Source: Gari tellinella
Taxonomy: Eukaryota; Mollusca; Bivalvia; Cardiida; Psammobiidae
Direction: 5' to 3'
Length of the DNA: 64,000 nucleotides
NCBI GenBank assembly: GCA_922989275.2
Contig: OV277862.1
Location: 41,565,786 to 41,629,785 of the forward strand
Shown piece by piece: positions 4,418 through 60,250 of this stretch. Made by a program: the position numbers and the translations under genes. The notes under the pieces were generated by a model that saw only the letters and a list, made by a program, of their open reading frames with translations, was not told where the DNA came from and made no database searches. Every line of letters begins with the position of its first letter. Within the stretch, counting starts at the first letter, position 1.

Positions 4418-6476
4418 ACAAGAGCCCCATGGGGCATATTTCGCTCACCTGAGAATATCTGACAAAATGGAGATAATGATTTATGTCCAGGACGGGGTCA
4501 TTTTTTACCCAAGGGGTATTATTGAATTTGAACAATCTTGATAGAGGACCTGTAGATGATGCTATGTGCCAAATATCTAATATCAGGGTACTAGGGTTTT
4601 AGATAAGAATTTTTTTTTTAAGTTTCCATTGAAAAAATCTATTTTTAGCTCCTGTGACCTAGATATGCAACAGACTGGTACCATTTGAACAAAATACGTA
4701 AAGGACATCTAGAAGTGTCACCATGCCAAATATCAAAGCTCTGGCCATATTAGTTTCAGAGGAAAAGATGTTTGAAAATTTCACTACATAACTCTATGTA
4801 AAACTGTGACCCCCTGGGCGGGGCCAATTTTGACCCCAGGGGCATAATTTGAACAAACTTGATAGAGGACCTGTAGATGATGCTATGTGCCAAATATCTA
4901 AGCTCTGGTCCTTGTAGTTTTTGACAAGAAGATTTTTTAAGTTTTCATTGAAAAAATCTATTTTCAGCTCCTGTGACCTAGATATGCAACAGACAGGAAC
5001 CATTTGAACAAAATACGTAAAGGATATTTAGAAGTGTCCCCATTCCAAATATCAAAGCTCTGGCCATATTAGTGTCAAAGAAGAAGACGTTTGAAATTTT
5101 CACTAAATAACTCTATGTAAAACTGTGACCCCCGGGGCGGGGCCAATTTTGACTCCAGGGGCATAATTTGAACAAACTTGATAGAGGACCTGTAGGCAAT
5201 TCTATGTGCCAAATATCTTATCGCTGGCCCTTGTAGTTTCAGACAAGAAGATTTTTTAAGTTTCATTGAAAAAAATCTATTTTTAGCTCCTGTGACCTAG
5301 ATATGCAACCGACCAGAACCATTTGAACAGTATTGGTAAAGGACATCTAGAAGTGTCACCATGCCAAATATCAAAGCTCTGGCCATATTAGTTTCAGAGG
5401 AGAAGATGTTTGAAAATTTCACCACATAACTCTATGTAAAACTGTGACCCCCTGGGCGGGGCCAATTTTGACCCCAGGGGCATAATTTGAACAAACTTGA
5501 TAGAGGACCTGTAGATGATGCTATGTGCCAAATATCTAAGCTCTGGTCCTTGTAGTTTTTGACAAGAAGATTTTTTAAGTTTTCATTGAAAAAATCTATT
5601 TTCAGCTCCTGTGACCTAGATATGCAACAGACAGGAACCATTTGAACAAAATAAGTAAAGGATATTTAGAAGTGTCCCCATTCCAAATATCAAAGCTCTG
5701 GCCATATCAGTGTCAATGAAGAAGACGTTTGAAATTTTCACTAAATAACTCTATGTAAAACTGTGACCCCCGGGGCGGGGCCAATTTTGACTCCAGGGGC
5801 ATAATTTGAACAAACTTGATAGAGGACCTGTAGGCAATGCTATGTGCTAAATATCTTATCGCTGGCCCTTGTAGTTTCAGACAAGAAGATTTTTTAAGTT
5901 TTCATTGAAAAAAATCTATTTTTAGCTCCTGTGACCTAGATATGCAACCGACCAGAACCATTTGAACAATATTGGTAAAGGACATGAAGAAGTGTCACCA
6001 TTGCCAAATATCAAAGCTCTGGCCATATTAGTTTCAGAGGAGAAGACGTTTGAAAATTTCACCACATAACTCTATGTAAAACTGTGACCCCCTGGGCGGG
6101 GCCAATTTTGACTCCAGGGGCATAATTTGAACAAACTTGATAGAGGACCTGTAGATGATGCTATGTGCCAAATATCTAAGCTCTGGTCTTTGTAGTTTCA
6201 GACAAGAAGATTTTTTAAGATTTCCTAATTTTTTCACTTTGGTTGCCATGGCAACCAGAGTTCGTTTTCAATTCTTTGAACAAATTTGAAAGAGCTTGAC
6301 CCAAGGAACATTCCTGTAAAGTTTGGTTGAAATCTGTCAAGCGGTATAGGAGGAGATGTCATTTGAAGCAATTGTTAACGACGACGGACAACGCACGACG
6401 ACGGACAACGCACGACGACGGACACAGGGCCATCCAATTAGCTCACCTTGAGCCTATGGCTCAGGTGAGCTAAAAA
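4418..6476. mobile_element. GCTCACCTGAG-type mollusc element with internal tandem array
   Basis: It begins with caagagccccatggggc followed by cgctcacctgag, and ends with ggctcaggtgagctaaaaa. Between them is a tandem array of a roughly 319-bp unit; the marker aaactgtgacc occurs at 4801, 5119, 5438, 5758 and 6078. Alternate units are more alike: the stretches 4794-5003 and 5432-5641 translate identically on the minus strand. That implies amplification as a roughly 640-bp dimer. ORFs here are by-products of the repeat. Confidence 0.8.
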
Positions 6477-8925: not shown

Positions 8926-9008
8926 GCATAATTGCAAACAGATGTGTGCCGAGTACCCGGACTTGCTACTGTTTATTGCTCTGATTGGTTTTAAAAACTG
9001 AGCTAACC

Positions 9009-10451
9009 ATGGAGAGAGTAAAGATAAACTATTGTCCCCCTGAAGATCTACTTAAATTGCCAGGGGTTGGACCAAGTTATGCCGACAAAATAATGAGTCT
9101 GCGGGATATTTATGGCAATATAGACCTGGAAAAGTTGGAAAAAATTCCTTATCTGCGAATAACAGATGCACTCAGAAATGCCATAGATTTTGAGAAGTAT
9201 CCTTCCTCAAGGTCAATGTCTCCGCCAAGGACGGAAGCTACTGAATATAGAAGCAGTAGCTATAGACCGCCAGCAAGGGATGAGCCTGTCGACTATTGGA
9301 ATGGCGACTACAGAAACACTGACTATCCACAAAGCGACTATAGGACCCCTCCCAGGTATACCTATGGTCAGCTGAGGTCAGACAGAATGGGTCAGAATTA
9401 CAGGGATGATGAATACAGACGCAGAGAGAACTGGTCTGAGGAACGAGAGCCATCACAGAATCCAACACCGACATACTCCAGGCAGAAGCAGTTGCCAAGA
9501 ACAATAGCTTATGAGGGCACAGGTTCCTGGAAAGCGTTCATAGGGAAGTTCAACTCGTTTGCTGATGAACAGGCATGGGACGCTAGACAGAGGAAAAACA
9601 ATTTGAACTGGTGCTTACAAGGAAAGGCCAGTGATTATTATGCCACCATGATGGACCGTGAGCCGAATCTGGAGCTATTCGATATTGTAACGAGACTAGA
9701 GAGAAGGTTCGGTACAACAGACATTCCAGAAAGCTTGAGGGTACAATTTGCTAGTCTGCACCAAAATACCGGAGAACCTATTCGGGACTGGGCGGACAGA
9801 GTAGTGAGTGTGGCTACAAAGGCATTTAAGGATATGTCCGAGAACCATGTTCAGAATGAGATGGTGTTGAGATTCTGCCAGGGATGTTGTGATAAGGAAG
9901 CTGGTATATATGCTCTTAACCAGAGAGCCAAGAGTATGGAAGAGGCGCTAGCTCATGTACAGTGGCACCAACATACCAGTAAGCTTATGCAAAGTCAGGA
10001 TCAAAGGCAACAACCATATGGTGTACGTCAACTCTCATACGAAGATGAGTATTGGTATGAGCAAGAGCGTATGGAAGCCGATCCGATGAAGGTGGATCTC
10101 AACAAATGTCAACCACCACCACCCCCTAGGATTGTGTCTCCTGTAGAGGGTAGAGTACAGGCCCTTGAAGGTAAGGTCGATAAGGTCCAGCAGTCTATGG
10201 AAAAGGTGCAACAATCACTGGAGCAGATGAACGAGAACCTCCAAGCACTGACCACGAGCAGAAGGGACAGATCTAGGTCGCCAGCATGGGACCAAACTAC
10301 CCCAGTCTGCGATCACTGCAGGGGAGAAGGACATTTCATTAAAGATTGTCCAAAATTAATAGAGAAGCAGGAATTGAAGTTTACTGGTACAGGTTCTTTA
10401 AACGACCAGAGGTTGGAAGACGGGGCCAGTCTCCAACCTGCCAAACAATAG
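9009..10451 (+). CDS. gag: Gag-like structural protein of the LTR retrotransposon
   Basis: The 480-residue protein starts at an ATG in strong context (aaccATGG); the same frame is open a further 24 bases upstream, but without an ATG. Residues about 12-60 resemble a helix-hairpin-helix fold (LLKLPGVGPSYADKI followed by a second hairpin), unusual in a Gag. A tyrosine- and arginine-rich linker follows, then a retrotransposon Gag core beginning GTGSWKAFIGKF and containing EPIRDWADRV. A coiled-coil-like stretch near residues 385-420 precedes a CCHC zinc knuckle (C434, C437, H442, C447; spacing C-X2-C-X4-H-X4-C). It would assemble the particle and package RNA. The frame is intact, consistent with the near-identical LTRs. 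It ends just beyond the frameshift signal. Confidence 0.88.
   Translation: MERVKINYCPPEDLLKLPGVGPSYADKIMSLRDIYGNIDLEKLEKIPYLRITDALRNAIDFEKYPSSRSMSPPRTEATEYRSSSYRPPARDEPVDYWNGDYRNTDYPQSDYRTPPRYTYGQLRSDRMGQNYRDDEYRRRENWSEEREPSQNPTPTYSRQKQLPRTIAYEGTGSWKAFIGKFNSFADEQAWDARQRKNNLNWCLQGKASDYYATMMDREPNLELFDIVTRLERRFGTTDIPESLRVQFASLHQNTGEPIRDWADRVVSVATKAFKDMSENHVQNEMVLRFCQGCCDKEAGIYALNQRAKSMEEALAHVQWHQHTSKLMQSQDQRQQPYGVRQLSYEDEYWYEQERMEADPMKVDLNKCQPPPPPRIVSPVEGRVQALEGKVDKVQQSMEKVQQSLEQMNENLQALTTSRRDRSRSPAWDQTTPVCDHCRGEGHFIKDCPKLIEKQELKFTGTGSLNDQRLEDGASLQPAKQ
10397..10438 (+). promoter_or_regulatory. Programmed -1 ribosomal frameshift signal
   Basis: The heptamer TTTAAAC (10397-10403) is in the gag frame as T TTA AAC, the classic X XXY YYZ slippery arrangement. 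After a 7-nt spacer, GGTTGGAAGAC (10411-10421) pairs with GTCTCCAACC (10429-10438), giving a 10-bp stem with one bulged A and a 7-nt loop. A -1 slip enters the protease frame. The loop bases GGCC could pair with a downstream GGCC near 10451-10454, so a pseudoknot is possible. Confidence 0.85.
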
Positions 10452-11323
10452 GCCTAGAGAATACCAAACAGGCTGGACTCGAAGGAGGAGAGCCGGCAGG
10501 GATATTGGTCAACTCAGGTACTTTGAAAGGTCAAGTGGTGGTAGCTGGACTCAGAAGTGAAGAGCCAGATGAAACAGAAATGGATAGTTTAGATTCTCTT
10601 GGTACAGCTGAACTCTTTGAAGAAGGGCTAACTGAAGGGGATATTACTTCTGCGTTGGAAGTATCGCACCGGCATGCACTCACCTCATGTGTTGATGAGC
10701 TGACAATAAATGCCAAAGTAGAATTCTGCCAAAGAGAAGTAGTTGTTTGCCGATTGAGATCATGCTCAATGTTTACTGTTGCTTTACAGGTAGAAACTGT
10801 GCTACTGAAAGCTATAGTGGATACAGCAGCAGAATTGACCATCATTTTCGACCAAGCATGTAATTATACATTGCCAAATAAACCACCTGTCTTGAGAAAC
10901 GTAGTGGTGTATACAGCTGGTCGGGATATGCAAATGCAGGGCATGGTTGATGGCCTGTTTCTTGACCCGATAGGTAGCAGTCAGTCCGAAGAGTACGCAT
11001 ATGTAGCTTCCATTGAAGACGACATGCTATCAGGGATAGAACTTCTTCGCCAAAGGAAAGTAGAAATTGACATACAGGATTCGTCGCTTTCCTTGAATGG
11101 GGAGAAAGTCCGCATGGTTTATGGGACTGAAAGTAAACCGATGTCAGTTTCTAAGGTCTGGGTAGCCCACACTGTAGTGATACCACCTTATTCCGTGAGA
11201 ATGGTCAAATGTGATAGGACGATAAAGCTAGATAAATTCATGTTTGAGCCAGGCAATAGTAAAAGGTTGCTCGTCCCACGTTTAGTATTCGACAGAGGGA
11301 GATCAACCAGTATGCGGAGCTGA
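10398..11323 (+). CDS. pro: Retropepsin-like aspartic protease, expressed by -1 frameshift
   Basis: The frame is open from 10346 and is in the -1 register relative to gag, so entry is expected at the slippery site. The catalytic region reads AIVDTAAELTII, with the aspartate codon at 10820-10822, in place of the usual DTG or DSG followed by A. DTA variants occur in some Ty3-like lineages, but activity cannot be judged here. Downstream, DMLSGIELLRQRKVEIDI matches the second conserved region (I-L-G-x-D-x-L in typical proteases), with S replacing the usual residue before G. It stops at TGA 11321-11323 with no reverse transcriptase after it. Confidence 0.8.
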
Positions 11324-22996: not shown

Positions 22997-23065
22997 AATA
23001 AATGTCCATGGATAGATGCGTCTTTAAGTATTGATGTCAGTCAAACTATTGGAGACTTTTGTTAA

Positions 23066-23305
23066 CCTTTCCCCAATAGAAGTGCCTTTTAGCACATTCA
23101 GTTTATTCCTCCGCTGAAGAAAATAGTTCTAATTTATACAGTCATGAGTATGTATCATAAGGAATATTTTCTTTATTCTAGCAGGTGGTAGCTTAAAGCA
23201 GGTTGAAAGTAAAGCAGAATGCGCCTTAAAGCGCATTCTGCTTTACTTTCAACCTGCTTTAAAGTCACCCATTTCAAAACTAGAAACAGGCTATTGGGTA
23301 AAGGG
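23066..23305. mobile_element. MITE-A in the first duplication copy
   Basis: 240 bp between TTAA at 23062-23065 and 23306-23309. It is an intact core-1 palindrome with GCGCCTTAAAGCGC at the turn. Confidence 0.85.
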
Positions 23306-23425
23306 TTAAGCATACGATATAATGTAACGTATATGATTATTGATATATATTTCAGGAATAAATGTCCATGGATAGATGCGTCTTTAAGTATTGATGTCAG
23401 TCAAACTATTGGAGACTTTTGTTAA

Positions 23426-23665
23426 CCTTTCCCCAATAGAAGTGCCTTTTAGCACATTCAGTTTATTCCTCCGCTGAAGAAAATAGTTCTAATTTATACA
23501 GTCATGAGTATGTATCATAAGGAATATTTTCTTTATTCTAGCAGGTGGTAGCTTAAAGCAGGTTGAAAGTAAAGCAGAATGCGCCTTAAAGCGCATTCTG
23601 CTTTACTTTCAACCTGCTTTAAAGTCACCCATTTCAAAACTAGAAACAGGCTATTGGGTAAAGGG
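23426..23665. mobile_element. MITE-A in the second duplication copy
   Basis: Identical to 23066-23305 and flanked by the same TTAA sites. It arose by the tandem duplication, not by transposition. Confidence 0.85.
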
Positions 23666-23722
23666 TTAAGCATACGATATAATGTAACGTATATGATTAT
23701 TGATATATATTTCAGGGCCATA

Positions 23723-23833
23723 ATGCAGACAGACAATGAGTATTTGCAGTGCCTAGGATTGGGCCTGCAAGGTCTGCGGGCGTCAGGACAATTTTGTGAT
23801 GCAATGGTGTGCGTTGGAAGTACCAGAATTCTG
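23723..23833 (+). CDS. BTB-HTH array protein, coding exon 1 (BTB start)
   Basis: It encodes residues 1-37, the start of a BTB/POZ domain: LGLGLQGLRASGQFCDAMVC matches the usual helix 1 and 'G.FCDV' strand. A splice acceptor (ttcag) lies 7 bp before the ATG, so a 5' untranslated exon is expected upstream. The donor is CTG|gtatgc, phase 0. The next exon continues the BTB domain exactly where expected ('...RIL' then 'VHKVVLSAAS'). The upstream frame through the MITE is open but repeat-derived, so this ATG is chosen as the start. Confidence 0.85.
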
Positions 23834-24579
23834 GTATGCAATTTATTTATTTATTTATTTTATTTCTTAATTTCATGATATAGTCATAGACATAATTTAG
23901 TGAACTGATTTTGTATTTTATTGTTTGTTTGATATTTTTGTGAATCATATTCATATTATCATTGTTTTTATTCTTTTGAAAATACATGTACTTACATGTG
24001 ACAAATTTATGCCATCCCTGAATGAATGAATGTAAGTATATTATGATAATCATTGATCAACCCATAATTGCTAGCAAGTACTACAGATTCTGATAAGATG
24101 GTGATATTCTTTTCAATTTTAAATATTTGTAAACATAATTACACATGTGAAATACAAACTTCAAATTGGGTCTCATTTATTATTAATATCTACATGTACC
24201 GAGTATATGTGAACAGGATGTCTAATTTGCATGCACTTAACTAAAGAAACAAACCTGTAATGCTATATTCAACTTGAAGACCTTTTTGAAAATAAAATCC
24301 TGAAATCCAGTGAGTTTGGGGTCTTTTTTCACCAAAACCGTAATGTTGGCAGCAGGCATCTTTAGAGGGGAAATAGAGCCGGTGTTTACATAAGTTTTTC
24401 CTTCAATATTTAAGATAGGTGGTTCCTAAAACCTCTTTTTGCTGTACTGTCAGTCTACCATAAGCTTCCATCTGTCGGGGTGCAGGTTTGTTATGGTTCT
24501 TTATCGGGGCCAGTTGGAAGCATGGAAAGGGATTTCTATGAAGAATAAGGGAAAGTGTTTCTATTTGGTAATGGATTAA

Positions 24580-24810
24580 CCCATTTCTCCTTAGCCTCTT
24601 TCTGGTATCACTTAAAGCAGGTTGAAAGTAAAGCAGAATGCGCCTTAAGGCACATTTTGCTTTACTTTCAGCCTACTTTAAGCTTACCTTAAGCTATCAT
24701 CTGCTAGGATATAGAAAATATTTCTTATGATACATATTCTGATTTCATGACTGTATAAAAGTGGAGGAATAAATTATAGGCGTAAAAAGGCATATTTATG
24801 GGGGAATGGG
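24580..24810. mobile_element. MITE-A in intron 1 of the BTB gene
   Basis: Bounded by TTAA at 24576-24579 and 24811-24814, with a core-1 hairpin at about 24612-24682. It ends about 75 bp before the exon 2 acceptor. Confidence 0.85.
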
Positions 24811-24886
24811 TTAACATAGGATGAAAATAAAGCAGAAAACTCCCTTACAAGTGAAAAGTCCATTTGGATGTTTGGTTTATTTCCAG

Positions 24887-25046
24887 GTACACAAAGTTGT
24901 GTTGAGTGCAGCCAGCAAAACCCTGCATGACCTTGCCCTGGACTTTGATATGACCCCTCACAGAGAGCGAGACCAGCTGGAGATCATTATTCCTCCTGAC
25001 ATCAGTCTTTTTGCTGTCAACATGTTTATCAATTACTTGTACACAG
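24887..25046 (+). CDS. BTB-HTH array protein, coding exon 2 (BTB middle)
   Basis: It encodes residues 38 to about 91: VHKVVLSAASKTLHDL, then an acidic and polar loop, then FAVNMFINYLYTG. This is the BTB core dimer-interface helix pair and the 'YTG' turn. The acceptor is ttccag|GTACAC in phase 0. The donor is ACAG|gtgagag with one base carried over. The joined BTB reading has family-typical order and spacing. BTB domains mediate dimerisation and co-repressor or cullin contacts; which applies here is unknown. Confidence 0.88.
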
Positions 25047-25081
25047 GTGAGAGCACTGATAGATTTCATCAAAAATGCCAA

Positions 25082-25276
25082 CAAGGCTCCAGATAAGAGG
25101 ATGTAAACTGAACAAATCCAACATTTACCCACACATTTCATCCCAAAATCCTATGGTGTTACTACTCATTAGAATCGTCTCGAAGAGACGATTCTAATGA
25201 GTATGACACCATAGGGTTTTATGCAGAAATAAAGAGATTTTAGTTTTTAGAAAAAAACCTCTTATCTCGAGCCCTG
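25082..25276. mobile_element. MITE-G (GCTCCAGATAAG ends)
   Basis: It starts CAAGGCTCCAGATAAGAGG and ends CCTCTTATCTCGAGCCCTG. A central palindrome (ctcattagaatcgtctcgaa, with its complement) differs from cores 1 and 2. It lies in intron 2 of the BTB gene. Confidence 0.75.
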
Positions 25277-25288
25277 CATAGTTATTTT

Positions 25289-25514
25289 TTACCCTTTACC
25301 CAATTAATTCGCTTTTTTATGCATCTAATTAATTCCTCCACTGAGGACAATAGTTCCAGTTTATATTGTTATGAATATGCACCATATATTCTATATTCTG
25401 TTATATGGTGTCTTAAAGCAGGCTGAAAGTAAAGCAGATTGCACCTTAAGGCATATTCAGTTTATTTTCAGGCTGCTTTCAGCTACCATCTGCTAGGATA
25501 TAGAAACTATCAAA
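25289..25514. mobile_element. MITE-A, cut off by a tandem-array element
   Basis: A normal left arm (accctttacccaattaattc) and a core-1 hairpin are present. The right arm stops at gaaactatc, where the gtcgagc array element begins. Confidence 0.65.
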
Positions 25515-27140
25515 AAGTCGAGCTATTGTCGTCACCCTGTCGTCTGCGTCTGCGTCAGCGTCTGCGTCGGTTAAGTTTTTTGCTTAAGGTTTTTGTAAGA
25601 GTCCATTTCTCAATAACTATCAAAGGTATCCATTTGAAACTTGGAATAGTTGTTCAGTATTAAAAGGGCAACTCATTACAACAAGACAGGTAACCCTGGG
25701 ATTTGTCATTTCAGAGTTATTGCCCTTGTTTTATTTACTTAAAAATTATAAATTAACATATCTCAATAACTATCAAAGGTATCCATTTGAAACTTTGAAT
25801 AGTTGTTCATGTTCAGTATCAAAAGGGCAACTCATTACAACAAGGCAGGTAACCCTGGGATTTGTCATTTCAGAGTTATTGCCCCTATTTTATTTACTTA
25901 AAAATTATAAATTAACATATCTCAATAACTATCAAAGGTATCCATTTGAAACTTGGAATACTTGTTTAGTATCAAAAGGGCAACTCATTACAACAAGGCA
26001 GGTAACCCTGTGATTTGTCATTTCAGAGTTATTGCCCTTGTTTTATTTACTTAAATATTATAAATTAACATATCTCAATAATTATCAGGGGTATCCATTT
26101 GAAACTTTGAATAGTTATTAAGTATCAAAAGAGCAACTCATTACAACAAGGCAGGTAACCCTAGGATTTGCCATTCCAGAGTTATTGCCCCTGTTTTATT
26201 TACTTAAAAATTATAAATTAACATATCTCAATAACTATCAAAGGTATCCATTTGAAACTTGGAATACTTGTTTAGTATCAAAAGGGCAACTCATTACAAC
26301 AAGGCAGGTAATCCAGGGATTTGTCATTTCAGAGTTATTGCCCATGTTTTATTTACTTAAAAATTGTAAATTAACATATCTAAATAACTATGAAAGATAT
26401 TAACTTGAAACTTTAAATACCTGTTAAGTATCAAAAGGACAACTCATGACAACAAGGTAGGTTACTCTGTGATTTGTGATTCCAGAGTAATTGCCCTTGA
26501 TTTATTTACTTAAAACTTGTCAATTGAAATATCTTAATAACTGTCAAAGGTTTTAACTTGAAACTTTAAATACTTGTGTTATAACAAAAGGGCAACTCAT
26601 TCAAACAAGAAGGTGACCGGGGATTTGCCATTCCAGAGTTATTGCCCTTGTTTTTATTTACATAAAACTTGTAAATTGAGATTTCTCAATAATTACCATA
26701 GGTATTAACTTGAAACTTTTAATGCTTGTTCAGTTTCAAAAGGGCATCACCTTTCAACACAGCAGATAACCATGGGATTTGTCATTGCAGAGTTATTGCC
26801 CTTGTTTGACTAAGAATTTGTATATGAAATTATTCAGTAACCGTAGAAAGTTATTAATTTCAAACTTCCAATATATTTGAATACTTGTTTAGTTTCAAAA
26901 GGACAACGCATTACAACAAGGCAGGTAAAGCAGGCAAAGATATTGTCCTTCTTTTGACTTATAGTTTACTTTAAGTGGAATGTAGACTGTCCAAGTATGT
27001 TTAAGTTGTTGTTGCTTACAAACTTCTATGATCAATAGGGCATTAAACACCCATACACATTCTTTAAGTTTGAAAAATATAGCCGTCTCAAGTATATGAA
27101 AGTCGAGCGTCCAGCACCCGTTTGCGGTGCTCTCGTTTTG
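25515..27140. repeat. Tandem array of a roughly 153-bp unit in BTB intron 2
   Basis: It begins gtcgagctattgtcgtcacc and ends gtcgagcgtccag...ggtgctctcgttttg, the paired ends of a mollusc repeat element. Inside, a unit starting ctcaataactatcaaaggta recurs about every 153 bp, roughly eight times, decaying rightward. Open frames with YLLKNYKLTYLNNYQRYPFE repeats are repeat translations, not genes. Confidence 0.8.
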
Positions 27141-27274
27141 TTAGCCAATGTAATCGTTCAGATATGATATTAAGCCATATTGGACAGTTCAGATGATAGA
27201 TAGTAGACAAATATTCAATGGGAGTTCTAAAGGTTAGTAAATCATTTGCTACATAAAATAACTTTGTCTTGTAA

Positions 27275-28170
27275 CCCGTTACACCATAAATACCCCTTTT
27301 TATGCCTTTAATTCATTCCTCCATTGAAGAAAAAAATCCATCTGGTAAAGTAACTAATACATAGCATGAGAAATTTTTCATATATCCTAGCAGATCATTG
27401 CTTAAAGCAGGTAAAAAGTAAAGCAGGATGTTCACCTGTTTTTAGCTCACCTGGCACATTTTGATCGTCCGTTCGTTCGTCGTCCGTCGTCAACAATTTC
27501 TTTAAAACGACATCTCCTCCTAAACCACTGGATGGATTTTAACCAAACTTGGCAGGAATGATCCTTGTTTAGGCCTCTTTAAAAGTTGTTCAAATATTTC
27601 CGATCCGATGCATATCTAGGTCAGAGGAGCTAAAAATAGATTGTTTCAATAAAAATCTTCTTCTCTGAAACCACAGTACCCTGAGCTTAGATATTTTGCA
27701 CAAAGCATCATCTACAGGTCCTCTATCAAGATTGTTCAAATTAATTCCCTTGGGTCAAAAATGGCCCCGCCCCAGGGGTCACAAATTTACATAGAGTTAT
27801 ATAGTGAAATCTTCAAACCTCTTCTTCTCTGAAACTAATATAGCTAGAGCTTTGATATATGGCATGGTGTAACTTCTAGAGGTACTTTACCAATATTGTT
27901 CAAATGGTTCAGGTCCGTTGCATATCTAGGTCACAGGAGCTAAAAATAGATTTTTTCAATAAAAACTTTAAAAATCTTCTCTGAAACCACAGTACCCTGA
28001 GCTTAGCTATTCGGCACTCAGCATCATCTAATAGGCAATTGGCACAATCATATTGCCATAATTTCTCAGCTTTCCAAGATATGTTACATTTACATCAACG
28101 GCTCCAGGTGAGCGATTTAGGGCCGTATACGGCTCTTGTTAAAACTAGACACAGGCTATGTAGGAAAGGG
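27275..28170. mobile_element. MITE-A carrying a nested GCTCACCTG-type element
   Basis: The left arm (cccgttacaccataaatacc) and the first half of core 1 are at 27275-27438. The right end (actagacacaggctatgtag ... aaaggg, then TTAA) is at 28141-28174. Everything between is an inserted second element. Confidence 0.7.
27440..28140. mobile_element. GCTCACCTG-type mollusc element, inverted relative to 4418-6476
   Basis: It starts ttttagctcacctggcac and ends ggtgagcgatttagggccgt...cggctcttgtt. The interior is the reverse complement of the 319-bp unit at 4801-6078, including ggccccgccccaggggtcac, present about twice. Confidence 0.75.
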
Positions 28171-28192
28171 TTAAACATGTAACAGGTTTTAA

Positions 28193-28412
28193 CCCATTAT
28201 ATGCGGGATACACTTTTAGGTATACCTCTAGGCAAACAGTTTTGATCTCAGATCAGGCCCCACATTGTGGGGCCTGATCTGATTTCAAACCTGTTTGCTG
28301 CTTAGTCAATATTCTATAAGAAACAGCTAAAATATTTTGCAAATATTTTAGTTATACCCATTGCAGACGACATTTTAAAATGGCTGCCAAATATTACCCA
28401 GCATACAATGGG
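28193..28412. mobile_element. MITE-H (TTAA), core-2 type
   Basis: 220 bp between TTAA at 28189-28192 and 28413-28416. The ends are CCCATTATATGC and GCATACAATGGG. The centre is a core-2 palindrome with ggccccacattgtggggcc at the turn. A second copy is at 52113-52332. Confidence 0.85.
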
Positions 28413-28457
28413 TTAAATTAATTATAAGTGAAAATAAGAGGTTTTGTGTTACTTTAG

Positions 28458-28808
28458 GTCAGATTGAACTTCGGGAGAGAGTGGTGGACCACCTTCAGAG
28501 ATTGGCTAGGCAGTTTGGAGTCTCCAGTCTCCAGACCAAATGTCAAGAGTTTATACAGCGTGCCTCAGCTCCAGACAGTCAGAACCTGAACCTTGGAGAG
28601 GATGGGAACCAGATAGAACCAGATTCCAGCTCTGCCAATGGAATACACATGGCCAGACTAGAAGAGCAGCAGGTTCCCATGTCAGAGGATACAAGCCTGG
28701 AACCAAGCCTTACAAGAAGCAACTCCTCATGCTCTGGTCTCAGTGCAGACATGCCTGTTGGTTATGGGAATGTTTCAGTGAAGTTGGAACCACACCAGCC
28801 CATACAAG
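28458..28808 (+). CDS. BTB-HTH array protein, coding exon 3 (BTB end and linker)
   Basis: The acceptor is tttag|GTCAGATT and completes the split glycine codon of 'YTG'. QIELRERVVDHLQRLARQFG and SSLQTKCQEFI are the last BTB helices. An acidic, serine-rich linker follows. Near its end is SVKLEPHQP, whose VKLE fits the SUMO-acceptor consensus. The donor is CAAG|gtgata, again with one base carried. The linker has low complexity typical of BTB transcription factors between the dimerisation and DNA-binding regions. Confidence 0.85.
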
Positions 28809-28885
28809 GTGATATTCTCAGTCTCATGTCCTTGATAAAATTTAAATCGTGTTGTGAACCACTTTTGGATCACTTTGATCTTTAA

Positions 28886-29133
28886 CCCATTACCCCATAA
28901 ATACGCTTTTTTTCGCCTCTAATTTTTTCCTTCACTGAAGAATATAGTTTCTATTTAATTATACAGTTATAGACATAAACCATAAGAAAGAGGTTCTGTA
29001 TCTTAGCAGATGGTAGCTTTAAGCAGACTGAAAGTAAAGCAGAATGTGCCTTAAGGCACATTCTGCTTTACTTTAAACCTGCTTTAAGTGGTCACCTATC
29101 TTAAATACTAGAAATAGGATATGGGGTAATGGG
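28886..29133. mobile_element. MITE-A, near-consensus copy in BTB intron 3
   Basis: 248 bp with TTAA on both sides (28882-28885, 29134-29137). The ends CCCATTACCCCATA and TATGGGGTAATGGG are perfect inverted repeats. The core-1 turn is GTGCCTTAAGGCAC. Confidence 0.9.
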
Positions 29134-29139
29134 TTAACT

Positions 29140-29620
29140 CTTACCTTGGTTATTGAAAAACCTTGTCCGAAGCATAACTCCTATACCATAACATCTAACA
29201 TTACCAAACCTTGTGTGTGCATACATCATGAGAGGAAGGAATTGTGTACCTTTTTCAGGTCAATTCGACCTTGCCCTCTGACCTTGATTATTAAACAACT
29301 TTGTCCGAAGCATATCTCTTATAAATACTATATATCATTCAGGATTATCAAAAATGGTGTGTGGATATATCTTGGGACTGTCAAGTGTCGCGAACCTATT
29401 TCAGCTAACCTTGACCTTTGATCTTGATTTAAGAAAACTTTGTCCAGAGCATATTTCTTTTTCAAAATTATCCAGGATTACCCAACATGGTGTGTGGATA
29501 TTATATCTTATGGTTGCGGAGTGTCATATTCCACTTTCAGGCCACCTAGACCTAGACCTAGACCTTTGGCCTTGATCACTGAAAAACCTTGCCTGGAGCA
29601 TGTGTAGGGTGTATGAATCA
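29140..29620. repeat. Tandem array, roughly 145-bp unit
   Basis: Four diverged units contain ccttggttattgaaaaacct and ccttgtccgaagcata. It lies in BTB intron 3 and starts directly at the TTAA of the preceding MITE-A. Confidence 0.65.
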
Positions 29621-29874
29621 CCATTAGAAAAGTGATAGTTCTAGTTTACTCCTCCACTCAAGAAAATAGTTTTCCTTAAAGAGTTATGTATGAATATGCA
29701 CCATAACAGAGGTTGCTTTAAGTAATTACCTGGTTTAAACACTTAAAACTAACTGTAGGGATAAACATAGATTGTCATTCTCCTTCAACCAATGGTATTC
29801 TTACACAATTTTGACTGCACTCAAAAAACAACATGAGACCATTTATGATCTGAGTAAACCTTTTTTGATGTTAA

Positions 29875-30108
29875 CTCTTTTAACGCCATGGGACTGTTTA
29901 AAATATACTCATTACATTTGCAAACAATGTAGGCCCAGATCAGAGGGCTCCTCTATGAGCCCTCTGATCTGGACTACACTGTTTTCTAATTTAAACCAGT
30001 ATTTACTAAACTACACAGAATTCCAAGTAAACTGGTTTATGTTTTGGTAACTTATATGATACACAAGGGAACCTAATAACCCACAATAGTTACTTAGTGT
30101 TGAAAGAC
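29875..30108. mobile_element. MITE-C2 ending 32 bp before exon 4
   Basis: It lies between TTAA at 29871-29874 and 30109-30112. The core-2 hairpin is at about 29918-29984 (gatcagagggctcctc...gagccctctgatc). Its right end lies very close to the exon 4 acceptor, so the branch point may lie inside or just after the MITE. Confidence 0.8.
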
Positions 30109-30140
30109 TTAAGATTTTAATTAACATTTTGTTGTTTCAG

Positions 30141-33100
30141 GTCCCAGCACCCAGACAGCAGGATGCTCAATGCCTGAAATGTCTCCTAGTAAATCTCCAA
30201 AGGGTGGCAAGAAAATGACAATGTTGGAAAAACTCATGAGTCCTGTAGTGAACCTGAAAAAGTTGCCGTCAAATATAACTCCAAAAGTGGTTGTGATGAT
30301 TAGTGATGACGAGAATGAGGAGGAGAACAGGTCACAGTTCACTGTCAAATCAACCCATCAGTATACCCTGGAGGAGAAAGAGGCAATAGCCTTAGAAGCC
30401 AAACGACTTGGTACAACTCAGGTGTCACAGTCTAGACACATTCCACTGCACGATGTCTTGAGCTGGATGGCTCTGTTTGGATTGCGCAATCCAGGACTTC
30501 AGAAAACATTAAATAAAGGCAAACAGGTGAACCATGATGCTGATCTAGCAATAGTTAGGTGGATTGTTCAGCAGCAAGAAATCAATGGATGTGTAGACCT
30601 CAACTGCATGAAAAAGTATGCTTTAACTGTACATCGACAGACTCAGCCAAAATTCAGTGCCTCTACAACTTGGCTTGGAAACTTTCTTCAGAGAAACTTG
30701 TCAGTGTTGCAGGGAACTAAGTTTGTTCATGGTGATCAGAACAGTGCTGGGGGTGAAGACCCTGCAGCTTTAGTGGTGAAGAAGGAACTCATGTCAGTAG
30801 AAGATCTCGCAGAAATGAACCAGACCGGACAGCTAGACTCAGGAGACAACTTAATAGGATCATTAGGTGAACATACTGTTCTAGATGATGTGTCATTCAA
30901 CGAACAGAGATTGGTCAGTGAAGCTCTTGGTGATGTTACAAATGACTTCAGTGATAATGATGATGCAGGGTTCTCAGACATGAATGAGGACAGTGACATC
31001 TCAGAAACATACTCACCAAAGATCCACACAAAGCCTACAGTATCAGGAAAGACTTCTAGTCATAATAGGGCCTTTGGCTCAATACTGACACCATTTGGGA
31101 AAAGGCCTATCATAGTTGGGCAGGCAAAATGCTTTGATGCTAAATCTGAGCGTAAAATTGTTCAGTGGGTGCTAGAGCGAAATGCAAGGGATGGATATGT
31201 GTTCACTGATGACTTCAAAGATTATTCCAGGTCATTGTATACTGGGTCAAAACCATTTGGAGCTACACAAGCCTGGATGAAGAAATTTCTGCGAAGGAAC
31301 AGAGCCTTAAAGGATGTTAGGTTTTGCTCTAAGTTTAAAAATACATACTCAAGTGAAGAGAAAATGTCAGCCGTGGCAATGGCCCGTCGTTTTGGTACAT
31401 CTTATGCTGCCAAGCATACAGGTATAAATCAAAAGATTATTCACAGTTGGAAATTGGCTATGGATAGGGGACAGTTAACACCTTCACCCTCTGTTGTGAG
31501 CAGGATCCAGGCCGCTAATACTCAAGGACTGCCTGATTTAGACATGGCATTAACCTCTCCCCCACAAACTCCAGAGGCGTCTCATGGTATTGTTCCAGAG
31601 TTTGAGACTCGTATTATACAGAAGCTTAAAGAACATCAGGAAAGAGAAGGCAGTATCAGCTATGATGAGATCAGTAAAATCAGTCAGGAAATATACAAGG
31701 AGACTCGGCCTTTGTTTAAAGCCAGTTACAATTGGATTAAATCATTTCTAGATCGTCACATAGAAGACACTAAAGGTTTAGATATTGAAAATGTAAGTAA
31801 AGTTATCATGGAAGATGAGACTATGAGTAATGACAAAATCACAGAAATGGTTGATAATGCTTTGAAAGAGATAGAAGCTCAGGAAGCAATGGATGGAGAT
31901 GACTTGACTTTGGGCACAACACCAGCAAAACCAACAGACAAACGACCAATCATTATCGGACCATCTGTGTCATTTGATAGGAAAACAGAAAAGCTTTTAG
32001 TAGACTGGGCAATAGAGCGACAAGACAGAGACGGGTATGTGTTTACTGATGATTTCAAAGATTATGCCAGATCTCTTCATAAAGGAACAAAGAAATTTTC
32101 AGCTTCTACAGGGTGGATGTCCTTGTTTTTACGTCGTCATCGAAATCTTCGCAATGTATTGTGGAAATCGAAGTTTAAGAATAACTACACGGAGGCTGAG
32201 AAGATGGCAGCGGTAGGGGAGGCCAAGAGATTAGGAACAGGACATGTGGGTAGGAAACTTGGTATTGATCCAGCACTGATCTGTGCCTGGAGAATTAAAC
32301 TGGAGAAAACTGCCCAGAAACAAACATTCTGGAAAGGTACAAAGATTCGCAAGTTTGGAAAGACACCAAAACCAAAATTATCTCCCATTAAACTGCATGC
32401 CTTTAGCCAAAATGATGCTGTTCGAGGTATTGTGCCTGAATTTGAACAAAGAATTCTTCAGCTGATACTGCAGGAGCATGAAAAGGAAGGGAGTATTTCA
32501 TATGAGGAAATCAGCAGAATTAGTCAGTCCATCTACAAAGAAACAAGACCAACCTTTAAGGCATCTTATGCCTGGATTCGAAACTTTATGAAGCGTCATG
32601 AGAGTACATTAGGAAGTATAAGCATAGACAATGTGAAGAAAGTGTTTCTTCCAGAGGAGGATGAAGACAGTGGACATACAAGCTCTATGATGGGCAAAAA
32701 TGATTTTGATGACTTTCAACTTGTAAAGTCATTTCATAAAAGACCAATTATAGTTGGTCAGTCCAGATCACTTGATACTAAAACTGAGAAGAAATTGGTG
32801 GAATGGTTGGTTGAACAGCAACAGCAAAATGGTTACGTCTTCCTGGATCAATTCAAATCCTATGCCCAGTCATTGTACAAAGGAAACAAGAAATTTGCAG
32901 CCACTCAAGCTTGGAGGATAAAATTCTTGAGAAGAAACCATGCAGCAGTCAAGCATGTTAAGTTCACTTCAAGCTTCAGGAATCAGTATTCACTTGAGGA
33001 AAAGAAAGCTATAGTGCTGGAATCAAAGAGGCTTGGTGCTGCCCATGTGTCCAAAAAGACTGGAATAGATCACTGCCTAATAAATGCCTGGCGATTGAAG

Positions 33101-36100
33101 CTGGAGAGAAGTGGTGACATTGCTGTTGATAGCCCTGGCCTGACTGGTGGTCACGCTGGTCAGAACACATGGACGGCTAAACTGTTTGCCAGTGGTGACA
33201 ATGTGTCTAAGAAGATGAAACAATCTGCCAGTGAGATGGGTCCAGGTCTGTATAGCCATAGAGGTATTGTACCCAAATTTGAGAAGAAGATAGTGATGCT
33301 TATTAACCAGCACATGAATGATGAAGGCAGTGTTACTTACCAAGATGTCAGCAATATTTCCAGAGCTGTTTACAAAGAAACTCGTCCACATTTCAAGGCT
33401 TGTTATAATTGGATCAAAGAGTTCATAAAACGCCACAAAAAAGAGTTGAGAGATGTAGAGTTTGAACACACCAGGAAGATACTGCTGGATGATGGGAGCG
33501 GTGTGGAGATTCTGGTACCAGAGGATAGGATTGATGATGTGGAGAGATACATGCCAGAATCTACTGAAGCTTCTATAGACTCCTGGGCAAGTCTGGGGGA
33601 CACAGATATTGTTGATGGTGGTAAAGATCCGGAGATAGTTATTGAAAATGCTGAAGATCCCCACTATGATATGTCTGGTAATGCAGGCAATGGATCAGGG
33701 ACATCTGGCCAAAATGTCAGCAGTATTGATATCACAAATATTGCCGCAAAGAAGCCAATTATAGTTGGCATGCCTGTACATTTTGACAGAAAGACAGAGA
33801 AGAAACTGGTAGAGTGGCTTGTAGAAAGACAAGAGAGGGATGATTTTGTTTTCACTGATGATTTCAGAGAATATGCCAGATCTTGGTACAAAGGGCCGCC
33901 CAGAAAGTTTGCTGCTACAAATGCATGGATATCGAAATTTTTACGACGAAATAAACTTGGCAAAAAGATTGAATTTCAGTCAAGACTGAAAGGAAACAAT
34001 CCCAAATTTGAGGAGAAAATTGTTCAGTTGATTCTTGACCATCAAGAAAAAGAAGGCAGTGTTTCAAATGATGATATACAGAGAATCACTCAGTCTGTGT
34101 ATAGAGAAATACGACCAAACTTCAGAGCTTGTTACAACTGGATCAAAGACTTTATTAAGAGACATAAAGAAGAGCTAGCAGAGGTGGAACTAGAAAATGT
34201 GAAGAAAGTCTTTATTCCAGATGATGACAATGAAAAGGATGGTGTCCTCATTAGAGATTATGATCCCATGAAAGGCCTGTCTTTCCTTGATAATTCAACT
34301 GAATCTAGAGCCTCACTGAATATGGAAGATTATGTGGAAGAAAACAGTATTGACAGTTCTTGGGTTGATATAGATGACTCTCCAACCCCAGGTACCTCAC
34401 AGTCTGGCTTAAATAGTGACAGTTCATCAGTTCTACGCAATCTTCTTACACCAAAGAGACCAATTATTATTGCACCACCAAAAAGCTTAGATATCAAAAC
34501 AGAAAAGAAACTTGTCCAGTGGATGCTGGAACAGCAACAAGAGCAGGGATGTGTCTACTTGGATTTATTCAAAGATTATGCAAAATCTATACATACTGGA
34601 CCAAAAAAATTTGCAGCCACCCAAGCTTGGATGATAAAGTTTAAACAAAGAAATTACGAAGCATTGAAGACTGTTATTATAAGGTCAAGGTTTAGAAATG
34701 AGTATTCACTAGAGGATAAGATGGCAGCTGTAGAAGAAGCAAGAAGACTAGGCTGTAACCATGTGGGCCGGAAACTGGGCATTAATGGTAGTGTCATATA
34801 TTCCTGGAAGGTACAGCTTGAACAGGCAGAAAGGTTGGGATCTGTAAAGGGCATACCAGTAGATACTGACACTGAGAAGGAATCTTCGAGAGGGATGGTA
34901 CCAGAGTTTGAGGAGAGAATCATAGAGTTGGTGTTGGAGAAGCAGGCAGTGAAAAGCAGTGTTTCTTATGATGACATAAGCCAGATTGCCAGGTCTGTCT
35001 ACTGTATAACCAGACCTCATTTCAAAGCCAGCTATAACTGGGTTATAGAGTTTATCAGGAAGCATAAAGACAGATTTGAAAGTGTGAACTTTGAAAATCA
35101 ACGTAAAGTGTTAACAGAGGAGGAAAAACTTCATATTTTGTCAGAAGAAAAGAAGTATGGCACAGACCATGTCACAAAGAAGAGAAATATATCTGCAAGC
35201 ACAATATACAACTGGAAGAGGAATATGATGGCTAAATCAATTCCAATCCCCAAGTACAAGGCTCTGGTTGGAAATAAAATTAAACAAAAGTATGCCAAGG
35301 GAAAGAAAGCAAAGAGGAGTTATTCAGTGGAAGAGAAAAGAAGAATTGTTTCAATAGCAGAGGAAAATGGCATAACATATACTTCAATTAAGCTTGCAAT
35401 GCCCAGAAAACTAATTGCAAATTGGGTGAAGTACTTCAGGGATAAAGGAGAAAACATTGTTATTAAGTACACCCCTGCTCCTACAGCAAAGAAAGAGCTT
35501 GAGCAGAAAGTAGTTGCATGGGTTATTGAAGAGAATGACAAACTAGGGGTTGTGATGACAAACAGGATTCAAGAGCATGCAAAGAAAGTGTTTGAAGAGG
35601 CATACACTAATTTCACAGCATCAAACCACTGGCTTGAAGTTTTTATTGCCCAGAATGCAGAAAGGTTTGAAAATGTGAGATTTAGAGAAAAGGGAGATAC
35701 AGACTTGGATTTTACTAATGAGGTTAAGCTCAAACTGTCAAGATATGCAGAAAGATTTGGAGCTGTGGAGACTGCCAATAAAACCGGTCTGTCACCAAAG
35801 AACATCTATCACTGGAGAAGGTGCATGAGACAGAAAGGTTTTGACCTGGCAGATAGTACAAGTCCCTCTCCAATAAACACTGACAACTCAGGCAATTCAC
35901 CCAAGCCCAAGAGTCTAATGCAGCAAAAACTTGATAAGATAGAGCAGAAATATTCCGAAGATGCCAAGAAGGCAATGGCGGCCGAAGCCAACACTGGAGG
36001 AGCGTCCGTCACAGCTTCAAAGTACAAGATACCCCTCCCTCTCTTGCTGAAATGGATGAAAATGCTTCAAGGAGTAAAGGATGAAGTAGACTCCAAACCT

Positions 36101-37717
36101 TCTTTATTGTCTCTTGGGAAAAGTTTCAGTGTATCTAGTAAAGAAAGCACCCCAGAATCTACCGGGTTTGGAAAATTAAAAGTCAGATTTCCAAGCGTGG
36201 AAAAGACAAAAACTATATCAAACATAAACAGATACTCGGTAGAGTTTAGAAAGGAAATGGTTAATGAAGCCAAGAAGCTTGGTGTTATGGAAGCTTCACG
36301 TGCAAATGGCATTCCAAACTCAACACTTTATGCATGGATGAAGGAATATGGAGGAGGCAAAAATCAGGAGAGCTGGAGAAAATCTGTAGATAGATCAAGA
36401 TCTAGTGTAGAAAGTTCACAATCTAGCTTTGACAGTGAGCTCGAAACATCAACACCAATAAGAGCTCAAGATATAAAAAAGGAACCAGTTGAATCTCCAG
36501 ATATATTGACTGAAAAGTTAATTAATGAGCTATCTGGATCAGGTAGTAGAATTGTTAGAAGGTATACTGAAGCGGAAAAGTATGCTGCTGCAAATAGAGC
36601 TATGAAAATAGGTGTTAAGAAAGCATCAATTGAAATGGAAATTCCACTTTCTAATGTTAGGAGATGGACTGATATGTTTAGGAAAAAGGTGAAGAGGTCT
36701 GAGGATAGTGAGAAGAAAAAATCTGTGAATAAGGGACTAAGGCTAAGTAGTTCATTTCTTCAGTCTGATTATGGTGATTCCTCATTTGACATGGACTTGT
36801 CAGGCAATGACAGTTCTGTTAGTTTCTCAGACACAAGTGTTACTGCAGATAAAGGTGTGAAAAGAAAAGCTGAGGCTATGCTTTCTGTTGCATTGTTCAG
36901 TGGAAAACAGAGGAAGCTCTACTCTGATGATGAAAAGCTCGACTTTGTAATTGAAAGTGATATCAATGGAACAAAAAGTGTAGCAGAGAAGGCAGGGGTT
37001 TCCTTAGATGTGCTCTACAAGTGGAGGCAAAAGTTCTCAGCTAGAATTAGACATAATGCAAGTAGAACTGCAACTGCCACCAGTGTCCTTGATACTAGTG
37101 AAGGTGAAGACAATGTGATCAATGATCTTCCTTCTCAAGAAGTTGATGAGGATGAATTAGAATATGATATCCGGGAAGCAAACAATGACAGTCCCAAAGA
37201 AATTGAAAATGAAAGTGTACATGATAACTCTGAATTTAACAGTGATTTTCCATCAAGTGCAGAAAGTGATAGAGTTTTAAACATTGCACCAGGTATAACA
37301 GTGACAAGTAATGAAGGAAGTGTGCAAGAAACCACTGGTGATACTAGGCAAGATCTCTTACAACCTAACATTGAAAACTTGTCTGAAATGTCAACTATAT
37401 TCCAGTCAGCTGCCAGTAAAGTGCTAGAAATGACAGCTGATTACATAGAGGCAGAAAAGGAACATGAGAAAAACCAGGAGTCTCCACACACTGGGAAAAT
37501 GTCACCAAAGCAGCATCAATATGATCAATCGAATACACCTCAACCAGAAACTGTTGTTCAAGAAAATGTGAAAGACAGTGTTGCTCAACCTGTTGAGAAA
37601 GACAAGGACGAGCCTTCAATGTTTAAGATTGTAAACGTGAAAAGTGAAGCACCAGATCATAGTGAGAGTGATAGTCAGCAACAAAGTTCAGCGATAGACT
37701 GTTGGAGAACATTTTGA
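30141..37717 (+). CDS. BTB-HTH array protein, terminal exon: about 24 HTH units of pogo/CENP-B and Psq/Brinker type
   Basis: The 7,577-nt exon encodes residues about 209-2732 (acceptor tttcag|GTCCC, split codon completed). It opens with a Psq/Brinker-like HTH (residue about 282) and a CENP-B-type HTH (about 338). Five tandem supermodules follow, starting at residues 528, 808, 1074, 1411 and 1646. Each has a CENP-B-type unit beginning KRPII (YVFTDDFKDYARSL, then 'KF.AT.AWM..FLRRN'), a Psq-like HTH, and a second CENP-B-type unit (VPEFE..I, then FKASYNWIK.FIKRH). Module 4 lacks the Psq-like unit. Then come single Psq-like units at about 1862, 1933, 2061, 2143, 2237, 2347 and 2468, with one more CENP-B unit at about 1988. 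Linkers are acidic. VKKE, IKKE and VKSE fit SUMO-acceptor sites. No DDE catalytic domain is seen. A nuclear DNA-binding role is inferred from the folds; targets are unknown. Confidence 0.88.
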
Positions 37718-38181
37718 GACAGAAAAAAATTAGCCTACATTGTTTAACCTTTTCCTCCCTGAAACATCGAATGGACAGTTCTAGGTTTCAATTTAGTCCA
37801 GTCCATTTTGACTTTTTAGGGTTGATTTTTACAATATAAGTCCAAATGAAAAACAGTGTAGACCCTGATCAGAGGGCTACTTAAGGAGCCCTCTGATCAG
37901 GGTTTACACTGTTTGCATAGGACAAGTGTATTTCTAACAGGTACACTGTTTGCAAATGAGGCATATATGCATGACTAGGGCTCAAAGAGTTAAGATTGTA
38001 GATGTGAAAAGTGAAGCACGAGAATAGAGTGTGAGTGGTTCTCAGCAACAAAAGTTAGTGATAGTGTTTGAGAAATGTTGAGAAAGACAAAAATGAGACT
38101 TATGTTTAAGATTGTAGATGTTAAACGTGAAGCACCAGACCAGGTTGAGAGTGATATTCAGCACAAAATTGAGTGATATGT
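37595..38181 (+). repeat. Three-copy tandem repeat of the BTB gene's 3' end
   Basis: The segment encoding the protein's last residues (tttaagattgtaaacgtgaa, 37620 onward) recurs in degraded form at about 37990-38096 and 38105-38181. The extra copies have stops and lie in the 3' untranslated or downstream region. A MITE-C1 interrupts the second copy at its TTTAAG. Confidence 0.75.
37748..37989. mobile_element. MITE-C1 with an empty site visible in sister repeats
   Basis: Flanked by TTAA at 37744-37747 and 37990-37993. The uninterrupted sequence TTTAAGATTG is present in the first and third copies of the surrounding tandem repeat. This demonstrates TTAA duplication on insertion. The hairpin is core 2 with gatcagagggctacttaagg at the turn. 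Confidence 0.9.
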
Positions 38182-58980: not shown

Positions 58981-60250
58981 TTTTCGGTGCTCCAGTGGGT
59001 GGTCTCATTAAAATTAAAATTTGTAGCAGAATGCTTAGGCCACAACTTGAAATAAGTCCGAGCTACATTGAAAATGATTTCTTATCAAATTTTAAAAGCT
59101 CAAATTGAAGTTTTAAGCCTTTACGGCAGGGCGCCTGTTCAATCTTTTTATATCCAGCTACATCAGATGGTCTCATTAATATTCAATTTCTAGCAAAATG
59201 CATTGACTGATGAACATGGAAATTTAACCAACACTAAAACTAAGTCTGGGCTACGTGAAAAACAACATTTTTGGTAATATTTGAAAGTGCAAACCAAAGT
59301 TTTAAGCGTAGCAAGGCTAAGTTTCATCTCTTTTTATTCGGCGCTCCAGTGGGTGGTCTCTTAAAAATTAAAAATTATAACAGAATGCATCGACCTATGG
59401 ACATGAAAATTAGGCAACAACTTGAAATAAGTCCAAGCTACATTGAAAACTCATTTTTATGAAATTTTAAAAGCTCAAACTGTAGTTTAAAGCCTTTACG
59501 GCAAGGCGCCTGTTTCATCTTTTTATATCCATCTTCAGCAGATGGTCTCATTAAAAGTGAAATTTGTAGCAGAATGCATTGACATATGAACATGAAAATT
59601 TAAGCAACAATAAAATTAAGTCTGGGCTACGTGAAAAACAACTTTTTTTGTAATAATTGAAAGCGCAAACCAAAGTTTTAAGCGTAGCAAGGCTAAGTTT
59701 CATCTCTTTTTATTCGGCGCTCCAGTGGGTGGTCTCTTAAAAATTAAAAATTGTAACAGAATGCATCGACATATGGACATGAAAATTAGGCAACAACTTG
59801 AAATAAGTCCAAGCTACATTGAAAACTCATTTTTATGAAATTTTAAAAGCTCAAACTGTAGTTTAAAGCCTTTACGGCAAGGCGTCTGTTTCATCTTTTT
59901 ATATCCATCTTCAGCAGATGGTCTCATTAAAAGTGAAATTTGTAGCAAAATGCATTGACATATGAACATGAAAATTTAACCAACAATAAAACTAAGCCTG
60001 GGCTACGTGAAAAACAACTTTTTTTGTAATATTTGAAAGTGCAAACCAATGTTTTAAGCGTAGCAAGGCTCAGTTTCATCTCTTTATATTCGGCACTCCT
60101 GTGGGTGGTCTTTTTAAAATTAAATTTTGTAGCAGAATGCATCGACATATGAACAAGAAAATAAGGCCACGACTTAACTAAGACTCAGCTACATGGAAAT
60201 TTAATTCTTATTAACATTTGAAACCTGACTCTGAAGATCCAAGCATTTAC
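58981..60250. repeat. Dimeric tandem array, roughly 376-bp repeat
   Basis: Two related half-units alternate, one with gctccagtgggtggtctc (58986, 59341, 59717; diverged at 60093), the other with cagatggtctcattaa (59163, 59538, 59914). The later periods are about 376 bp. The array lies in the acid phosphatase intron. Open frames in it are repeat translations. Confidence 0.8.

Follow-up and report, generated by a model that had tools for sequence, protein, structure and literature searches.

What kind of protein carries two dozen transposase-type helix-turn-helix (HTH) units behind a BTB domain, and what might it do? The question is raised by a gene in a stretch of 64,000 nucleotides (nt) from the bivalve Gari tellinella (assembly GCA_922989275.2, contig OV277862.1, positions 41,565,786 to 41,629,785 of the forward strand). 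This whole stretch is called the window here, and positions are counted within it. An initial annotation had proposed that four phase-consistent exons at 23723..37717 join a BTB domain to about 12 CENP-B-type and about 12 Psq/Brinker-type HTH units. The coordinates hold. On the + strand of the 64-kb window there is a protein-coding gene of four GT-AG exons with matching phases; the joined frame of 2732 amino acids (aa) runs from the ATG at 23723 to a stop ending at 37717, and that stop is the only one. The best overall explanation, which we favour with some reservation, is a spliced gene for a BTB protein with 24 HTH units that would act as a multivalent, DNA-bridging and SUMO-linked repressor or architectural factor.

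That the BTB exons and the large exon 4 form a single gene, as had been claimed, is borne out by relatives in other bivalves. Residues 1-202 are 63%, 64% and 58% identical to the models from Mya, Dreissena and Mactra, respectively, and the exon joins agree. A further relative, P0008 (2748 aa), comes from an 8634-nt contig and reads across the sites of all three junctions. This contig has at most 390 nt to spare beyond the coding sequence, against introns of 1053, 3411 and 1332 nt (5.8 kb in total) in the Gari tellinella window, and P0008 therefore appears transcript-like, as a spliced mRNA would be; we regard it as support for the fusion of BTB and array that stops short of an RNA-seq test. 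Since an acceptor-like TTTCAG stands directly 5' of the ATG, there may be a further-upstream 5' untranslated exon.

Repeats were also noted at the locus. A 360-bp sequence occurs twice in tandem at 22997-23716, with 100% identity and ending 6 bases 5' of the exon 1 ATG; either it was duplicated very recently or it is an artefact of the assembly. Part of intron 2 is occupied by a 153-bp tandem repeat (25604-26807, 7.8 copies). Just past the stop, at 37980-38170, two decayed copies of the last coding stretch (the KIVNVKSEAP part) were recognised by eye.

The domain content was compared with Pfam and with solved structures. The BTB domain (PF00651) lies at residues 15-125 (E 1.1e-18). Against chains of solved structure its best match was IVNS1ABP (3e-9), next to which gigaxonin also outscored BCL6 and BACH1 (a BCL6-containing chain at best 2.4e-6, BACH1 3.3e-5), as did Kelch-type BTBs. 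For the 2530-aa frame of exon 4, the Pfam listing held 12 families at E <= 1, led by HTH_Tnp_Tc5 (5.8e-56, in 12 stretches) and HTH_Tnp_1 (2.7e-30, in 4). DDE families, KRAB, BrkDBD and the CENP-B C-terminal dimerisation domain are all absent from this list, in agreement with the claimed lack of a DDE nuclease, and HTH_psq scored 12.1 bits, below its cut-off of 20.4. Sequence profiles run against solved structures did not reach CENP-B, whereas folded models did: the P1-T1 model (the first two units) and a model with unit T11 both had the CENP-B DNA-binding domain as their best match (1hlv for P1-T1), with weak E-values. Weak PDB matches of the whole of exon 4 were dismissed as noise.

Where the initial annotation had counted about 12 plus about 12 units, iterated profiles gave exactly 12 T units (Tc5/CENP-B-HTH2-like, ~60 aa) and 12 P units (HTH1-like, ~44 aa). 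The scores are flattered because these profiles were derived from the very units scored. In a leave-one-out comparison, all 24 units were nonetheless recovered by the profile of the other 11 in their class (worst T12, 2.9e-13, and P8, 2.5e-6), and 50 shuffles of the protein gave no T or P match. Outside the units' own profiles, the T units are strongly supported and the P units in part. Taken singly, 12 of 12 T units matched Pfam HTH_Tnp_Tc5 at E <= 0.01; at the same threshold HTH_Tnp_1 was matched by six of 12 P units (P3, P5, P6, P8, P10 and P12), with P10 and P12 alone passing its curated cut-off. P6 additionally matches CENP-B_N and P10, alone among the P units at E <= 0.01, additionally HTH_psq, both under cut-off, while P1, P2, P4, P7, P9 and P11 matched no Pfam HTH family at E <= 0.1. 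The proposed pogo/CENP-B-type DNA-binding region thus gains support from the T units and from the match of the P1-T1 model to 1hlv; its HTH1 half is less certain, CENP-B_N being reached, under cut-off, in one of 12 P units. The 'Psq/Brinker' label holds in part: its Psq side has the sub-cut-off match on P10, BrkDBD is missing from the Pfam lists, and the P units that match Pfam are of HTH_Tnp_1 type.

The units are not a plain tandem series. They run as P1-T1, then five T(A)-P-T(B) superunits of which the fourth is without P, then P6-P7-T12 and finally P8-P12; the multivalent array that had been proposed holds as an amplification, but one built of T-P-T superunits with P-T pairs toward both ends. 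In the unit tree, the A-type T units group in one clade (support 0.69) and the B-type in another (0.98). The A-to-P linkers are 9-11 aa, and the linkers entering superunits (n=5) are 55-143 aa and all acidic. Superunits 1-4 are only 46-50% identical to superunit 5, which rules out a recent assembly duplication of the units, and a chance origin is ruled out by the shuffles, the recovery of left-out units and an arrangement conserved in orthologs.

A protein search with exon 4 found 21 proteins: 14 close relatives (53-57% identity across 90-100% of the query), five far relatives (35-37% across 54-55%) and two weak ones (P0021 and P0022). Searching with the N-terminal 420 residues of P0009 added one far-type protein, P0023, and no new clade. 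The sources named are Mercenaria mercenaria, Mya arenaria (isoform X2), Dreissena polymorpha and Mactra antiquata, all Imparidentia, so that orthologs in other bivalves, which the initial annotation had looked to, do exist; these four carry labels such as uncharacterized or hypothetical. BTB is in the Pfam list of four of the 14 close relatives (P0008-P0011) and is borne by three of the four named-species models. Nine other close relatives begin past the BTB exons, judged by eye, as gene models from genomic pieces would. The Mercenaria model has unrelated starting residues and joins at exon 3, which may mean that it is mispredicted or that it represents an isoform lacking the first BTB half. 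No oyster, scallop, Mytilus-type mussel, gastropod or cephalopod was named among the matches, in searches that demand shared 5-residue words and similar length and hence do not establish absence there. A search with a 3-row P1-T5 alignment (relatives of ~415-1320 aa) gave one match among 7995 candidates scored, these being the ones sharing most words: P0024, a 1004-aa Dreissena model with two T and two P units and a differing C-terminal part, probably an incomplete or mixed gene model from a related locus.

Unit order is identical in nine of the 14 close orthologs. The exceptions are P0011, without detectable T1; P0013, cut before T1; P0014 and P0015, without P1 and T1; and P0012, with one additional P. 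Order is kept in relatives across Veneridae, Myidae, Mactridae and Dreissenidae, the Mactra model being without detectable T1. Identity to the window protein across the 14 orthologs averages 0.70 in units (least in P10, 0.38; P7, 0.45; and P12, 0.49) and 0.34 in linkers. Together with the 2530-codon frame and the lack of a listed DDE domain, this rules out a pseudogene or a mobile transposase.

A FastTree of 247 T units, to which P0021 and P0022 contributed 10, was used to examine the history of the array. Within the close group each of the 12 T positions forms its own clade (support 0.47 for T6 and 0.82-1.0 for the others), and the far group shows the same (0.85-1.0). Close and far units come together in a single clade at three positions only, T1, T6 and T12. 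By tree distance, the closest counterpart of far superunit 4 is close superunit 1, that of both far 3 and far 5 is close 3, and far 1 and 2 give a mixed picture. Far-group arrays comprise 12 T and 15-16 P units, among them a P in superunit 4, which the close group lacks. Given the clade pattern and the distances, the ends and middle of the array look old, and whole superunits look to have been exchanged or re-multiplied between the close and far lineages. As read from the sequences, the claimed amplification mostly multiplied whole T-P-T superunits and predates the split of the sampled close relatives; since then the T units have stayed in their positions. P0021 (1571 aa) and P0022 (1707 aa) have five T units each, with four and three P units respectively, and BTB is absent from their Pfam lists. 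Because their 10 T units form one clade outside the bivalve units (support 0.997), a separate amplification is suggested, with multi-HTH arrays arising more than once; these two proteins are perhaps a second, distinct multi-HTH family.

Short motifs offer a hint of function. The protein has eight psi-K-x-E motifs, not many more than the 5.1 averaged by shuffled sequences. All 14 orthologs retain two of the linker motifs (VKKE and IKKE, with lysines at residues 421 and 2320) and 12 retain a third (VKSE, residue 2708); the pair within P3 and P4 is conserved in 10 of 14. The remaining motifs are kept in 5/14, 0/14 and 5/10; the last is in exon 3, and its five keeping rows are, by eye, the models that include exon 3. 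Judged by consensus, the psi-K-x-E motifs would be SUMO sites and the hydrophobic-acidic VVVMISDDE before P1 a SUMO-interaction motif. At the place of the latter, one pattern matches 12 of 14 close orthologs but no far relative; a second picks up all six far relatives and four of the 14 close ones, so that the likeness between close and far proteins is partly pattern-dependent. Alongside the BTB, the conserved SUMO-type motifs point to either a multivalent repressor or a factor of chromatin architecture.

The HTH1 and HTH2 domains of pogo-type proteins bind DNA, and the BTB domains of many nuclear proteins dimerise. Most probably, the bipartite DNA-reading module of a pogo-type element was domesticated and multiplied in this gene, and the product probably binds DNA or chromatin through many units. 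A DNA-binding region derived from a pogo transposase, without its nuclease, would have been joined to an N-terminal BTB. Each P-T pair would bind DNA like the domain of CENP-B, and the units would cooperate on one long composite or repeated site. By coupling two arrays, the BTB would make binding very tight and slow to release and would bridge DNA, and the lysine motifs and SUMO-interaction-like motif would lead to SUMO-linked repression or chromatin architecture. Likely targets would be transposons and satellites, as repeated DNA, or a small number of sites in the host. More speculatively, and with less confidence than in the overall reading, the protein could be an HTH counterpart of polydactyl zinc-finger repressors: a BTB-paired, 24-unit transposase reader covering ~100-200 bp per binding event (our own estimate, at several bp per unit), with SUMO-linked silencing or organising of repeats, superunits swapped as blocks between lineages and units frozen within one.

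The recognition helices bear on what the array would read. These comparisons are plain averages with helices set by position and no significance test. In orthologs the T helix is conserved at 0.93 (A) and 0.88 (B), versus 0.81 and 0.77 for the rest of the unit; between superunits it is 0.62 (A) and 0.59 (B), versus 0.53 and 0.51. The latter excess is modest, since four of 14 helix places (F, A, W and F) vary little or not at all across T units and A versus B already gives 0.41. The P helix (P2-P5) is kept in orthologs (0.84 versus 0.77 for the rest) yet differs between units (0.36 versus 0.49). As T helices are somewhat alike and P helices differ, the T parts of different superunits may read similar DNA, which suits repeated sites, with P parts adding unit-specific contacts, which suits a composite site. 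The P pattern also fits each P unit reading its own bases, and so an alternative in which the protein regulates a small number of host genes as a sequence-specific transcription factor, with only a few units reading DNA at any one site and the rest serving as alternative readers, as in polydactyl zinc-finger proteins. The likeness of T helices between superunits, partly due to those near-invariant residues, speaks against this alternative, which we consider possible though doubtful.

A centromere or satellite binder, CENP-B-like with many domains, would account for the closest solved structure being the CENP-B DNA-binding domain and for many similar T units, which fit tandem satellites. However, satellites turn over fast whereas the units are conserved across bivalve families, and the CENP-B dimerisation domain is missing from the Pfam list; we judge this role unlikely. 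Slightly less likely again is that the HTH units are now protein-protein or scaffold modules without DNA binding, as proposed for the nematode F-box A2 HTH. Some units are not basic, but the units as a whole are (+86), and orthologs conserve the T helix more strongly than the remainder of the unit. Finally, that a BTB gene and a separate array gene were merged by a gene-model artefact is very improbable: although the annotated models bearing BTB are predictions and the Mercenaria model is without the first BTB half, identical joins are shared by Mya, Dreissena and Mactra and the junction sites are crossed in the 8.6-kb P0008 contig.

We return to the favoured BTB-array reader and compare it with known systems. 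Pipsqueak-type arthropod BTB-Psq proteins likewise have an N-terminal BTB and several small HTH units; the bivalve protein differs in its sub-cut-off HTH_psq score, in having half its units of Tc5 type and in being far larger. ZBTB and BCL6-type repressors share the BTB, with C2H2 zinc fingers where the bivalve protein has an HTH array. P0021 and P0022 are alike in having several T and P units and unlike in having no BTB listed. In the text available for PMC7386202, 12 vertebrate pogo-derived genes have one bipartite or single HTH region and retain the DDE domain. CENP-B, JRK, TIGD2-7 and CENPBD1 resemble the bivalve protein in HTH1-then-HTH2 order, fold and HTH_Tnp_Tc5; they have at most one HTH1 plus one HTH2 and keep the DDE domain (PMC7386202, same text), whereas the bivalve protein has 12 + 12, no DDE listed, and a BTB. 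The Passer-derived POGK and POGZ (KRAB or zinc-finger fusions) similarly join a transposase DNA-binding region to another domain, but POGK combines one BrkDBD, one Tc5, DDE and KRAB (PMC7386202), and the bivalve Pfam list has neither BrkDBD nor KRAB. Most Octopus CENPB transcription factors carry BTB/POZ; a tandem HTH array goes unmentioned in the available part of that text (PMC10027918), and a small relative there is possible. Dan of Drosophila, a condensate-forming Psq-superfamily factor of nuclear architecture according to the accessible text of PMC11178893, is a distant parallel to the proposed architectural role. As the initial annotation had supposed, no described protein with a BTB and 24 HTH units was found in the open-access literature, among the matches listed.

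Elsewhere in the window, two overlapping open frames at 8985-11323 (488 and 326 aa) resemble the gag region of a long terminal repeat (LTR) element; by eye, they show a CCHC knuckle, an aspartic-protease-like DTAAE motif and a helix-hairpin-helix-like LPGVGPSYADKI at the start. Long tandem arrays lie at 4525-6224 (319-bp unit, 5.3 copies) and 59035-60199 (376-bp unit, 3.1 copies).

Table 1. Exons, HTH units and SUMO-type motifs of the BTB-array gene (all T and P coordinates are profile matches)
Feature	Position	Strand	Evidence
Exon 1 (coding part), BTB start	23723..23833	+	111 nt, GT donor, phase-consistent join
Exon 2, BTB core	24887..25046	+	160 nt, AG..GT, phase-consistent
Exon 3, BTB end (residue 125 ~28561) and linker	28458..28808	+	351 nt, AG..GT, phase-consistent; BTB 1.1e-18
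Exon 4, entire HTH array and stop	30141..37717	+	7577 nt, AG acceptor, 2530-codon open frame
SUMO-interaction-like motif VVVMISDDE, ahead of array	30287..30313	+	pattern matches in orthologs
P1	30356..30469	+	profile; no Pfam HTH match
T1	30521..30697	+	profile, P1-T1 model; with P1, CENP-B order HTH1-HTH2
psi-K-x-E motif VKKE, linker	30776..30787	+	14/14 orthologs
T2, superunit 1 (A)	31127..31303	+	profile
P2, superunit 1	31331..31462	+	profile; no Pfam HTH match
T3, superunit 1 (B)	31583..31759	+	profile
T4, superunit 2 (A)	31970..32143	+	profile
P3, superunit 2	32171..32302	+	profile and Pfam
T5, superunit 2 (B)	32423..32599	+	profile
T6, superunit 3 (A)	32765..32941	+	profile
P4, superunit 3	32972..33103	+	profile; no Pfam HTH match
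T7, superunit 3 (B)	33260..33439	+	profile
T8, superunit 4 (A)	33779..33955	+	profile; 11 aa to T9, no P between
T9, superunit 4 (B)	33989..34168	+	profile
T10, superunit 5 (A)	34481..34654	+	profile
P5, superunit 5	34688..34819	+	profile and Pfam
T11, superunit 5 (B)	34889..35068	+	profile and folded model
P6	35096..35227	+	profile and Pfam
P7	35306..35425	+	profile; no Pfam HTH match
T12	35489..35656	+	profile
P8	35711..35827	+	profile and Pfam
P9	35948..36064	+	profile; no Pfam HTH match
P10	36227..36340	+	profile and Pfam
psi-K-x-E motif IKKE, linker	36473..36484	+	14/14 orthologs
P11	36557..36667	+	profile; no Pfam HTH match
P12	36905..37033	+	profile and Pfam
psi-K-x-E motif VKSE within IVNVKSEA, near C-terminus	37637..37648	+	12/14 orthologs

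A domesticated transposase reader is a known kind of protein; what looks new here is its fusion to a BTB and its multiplication into a 24-unit array. Vertebrate pogo-derived genes, as covered by the available text of PMC7386202, keep the transposase core and one reader, whereas the bivalve gene would have lost the core and multiplied the reader. The gene offers a natural setting in which to ask how a tandem HTH array reads DNA, whether transposase readers, once multiplied, come to act against repeated DNA, and how a DNA-binding protein is rebuilt when blocks are exchanged within one exon.

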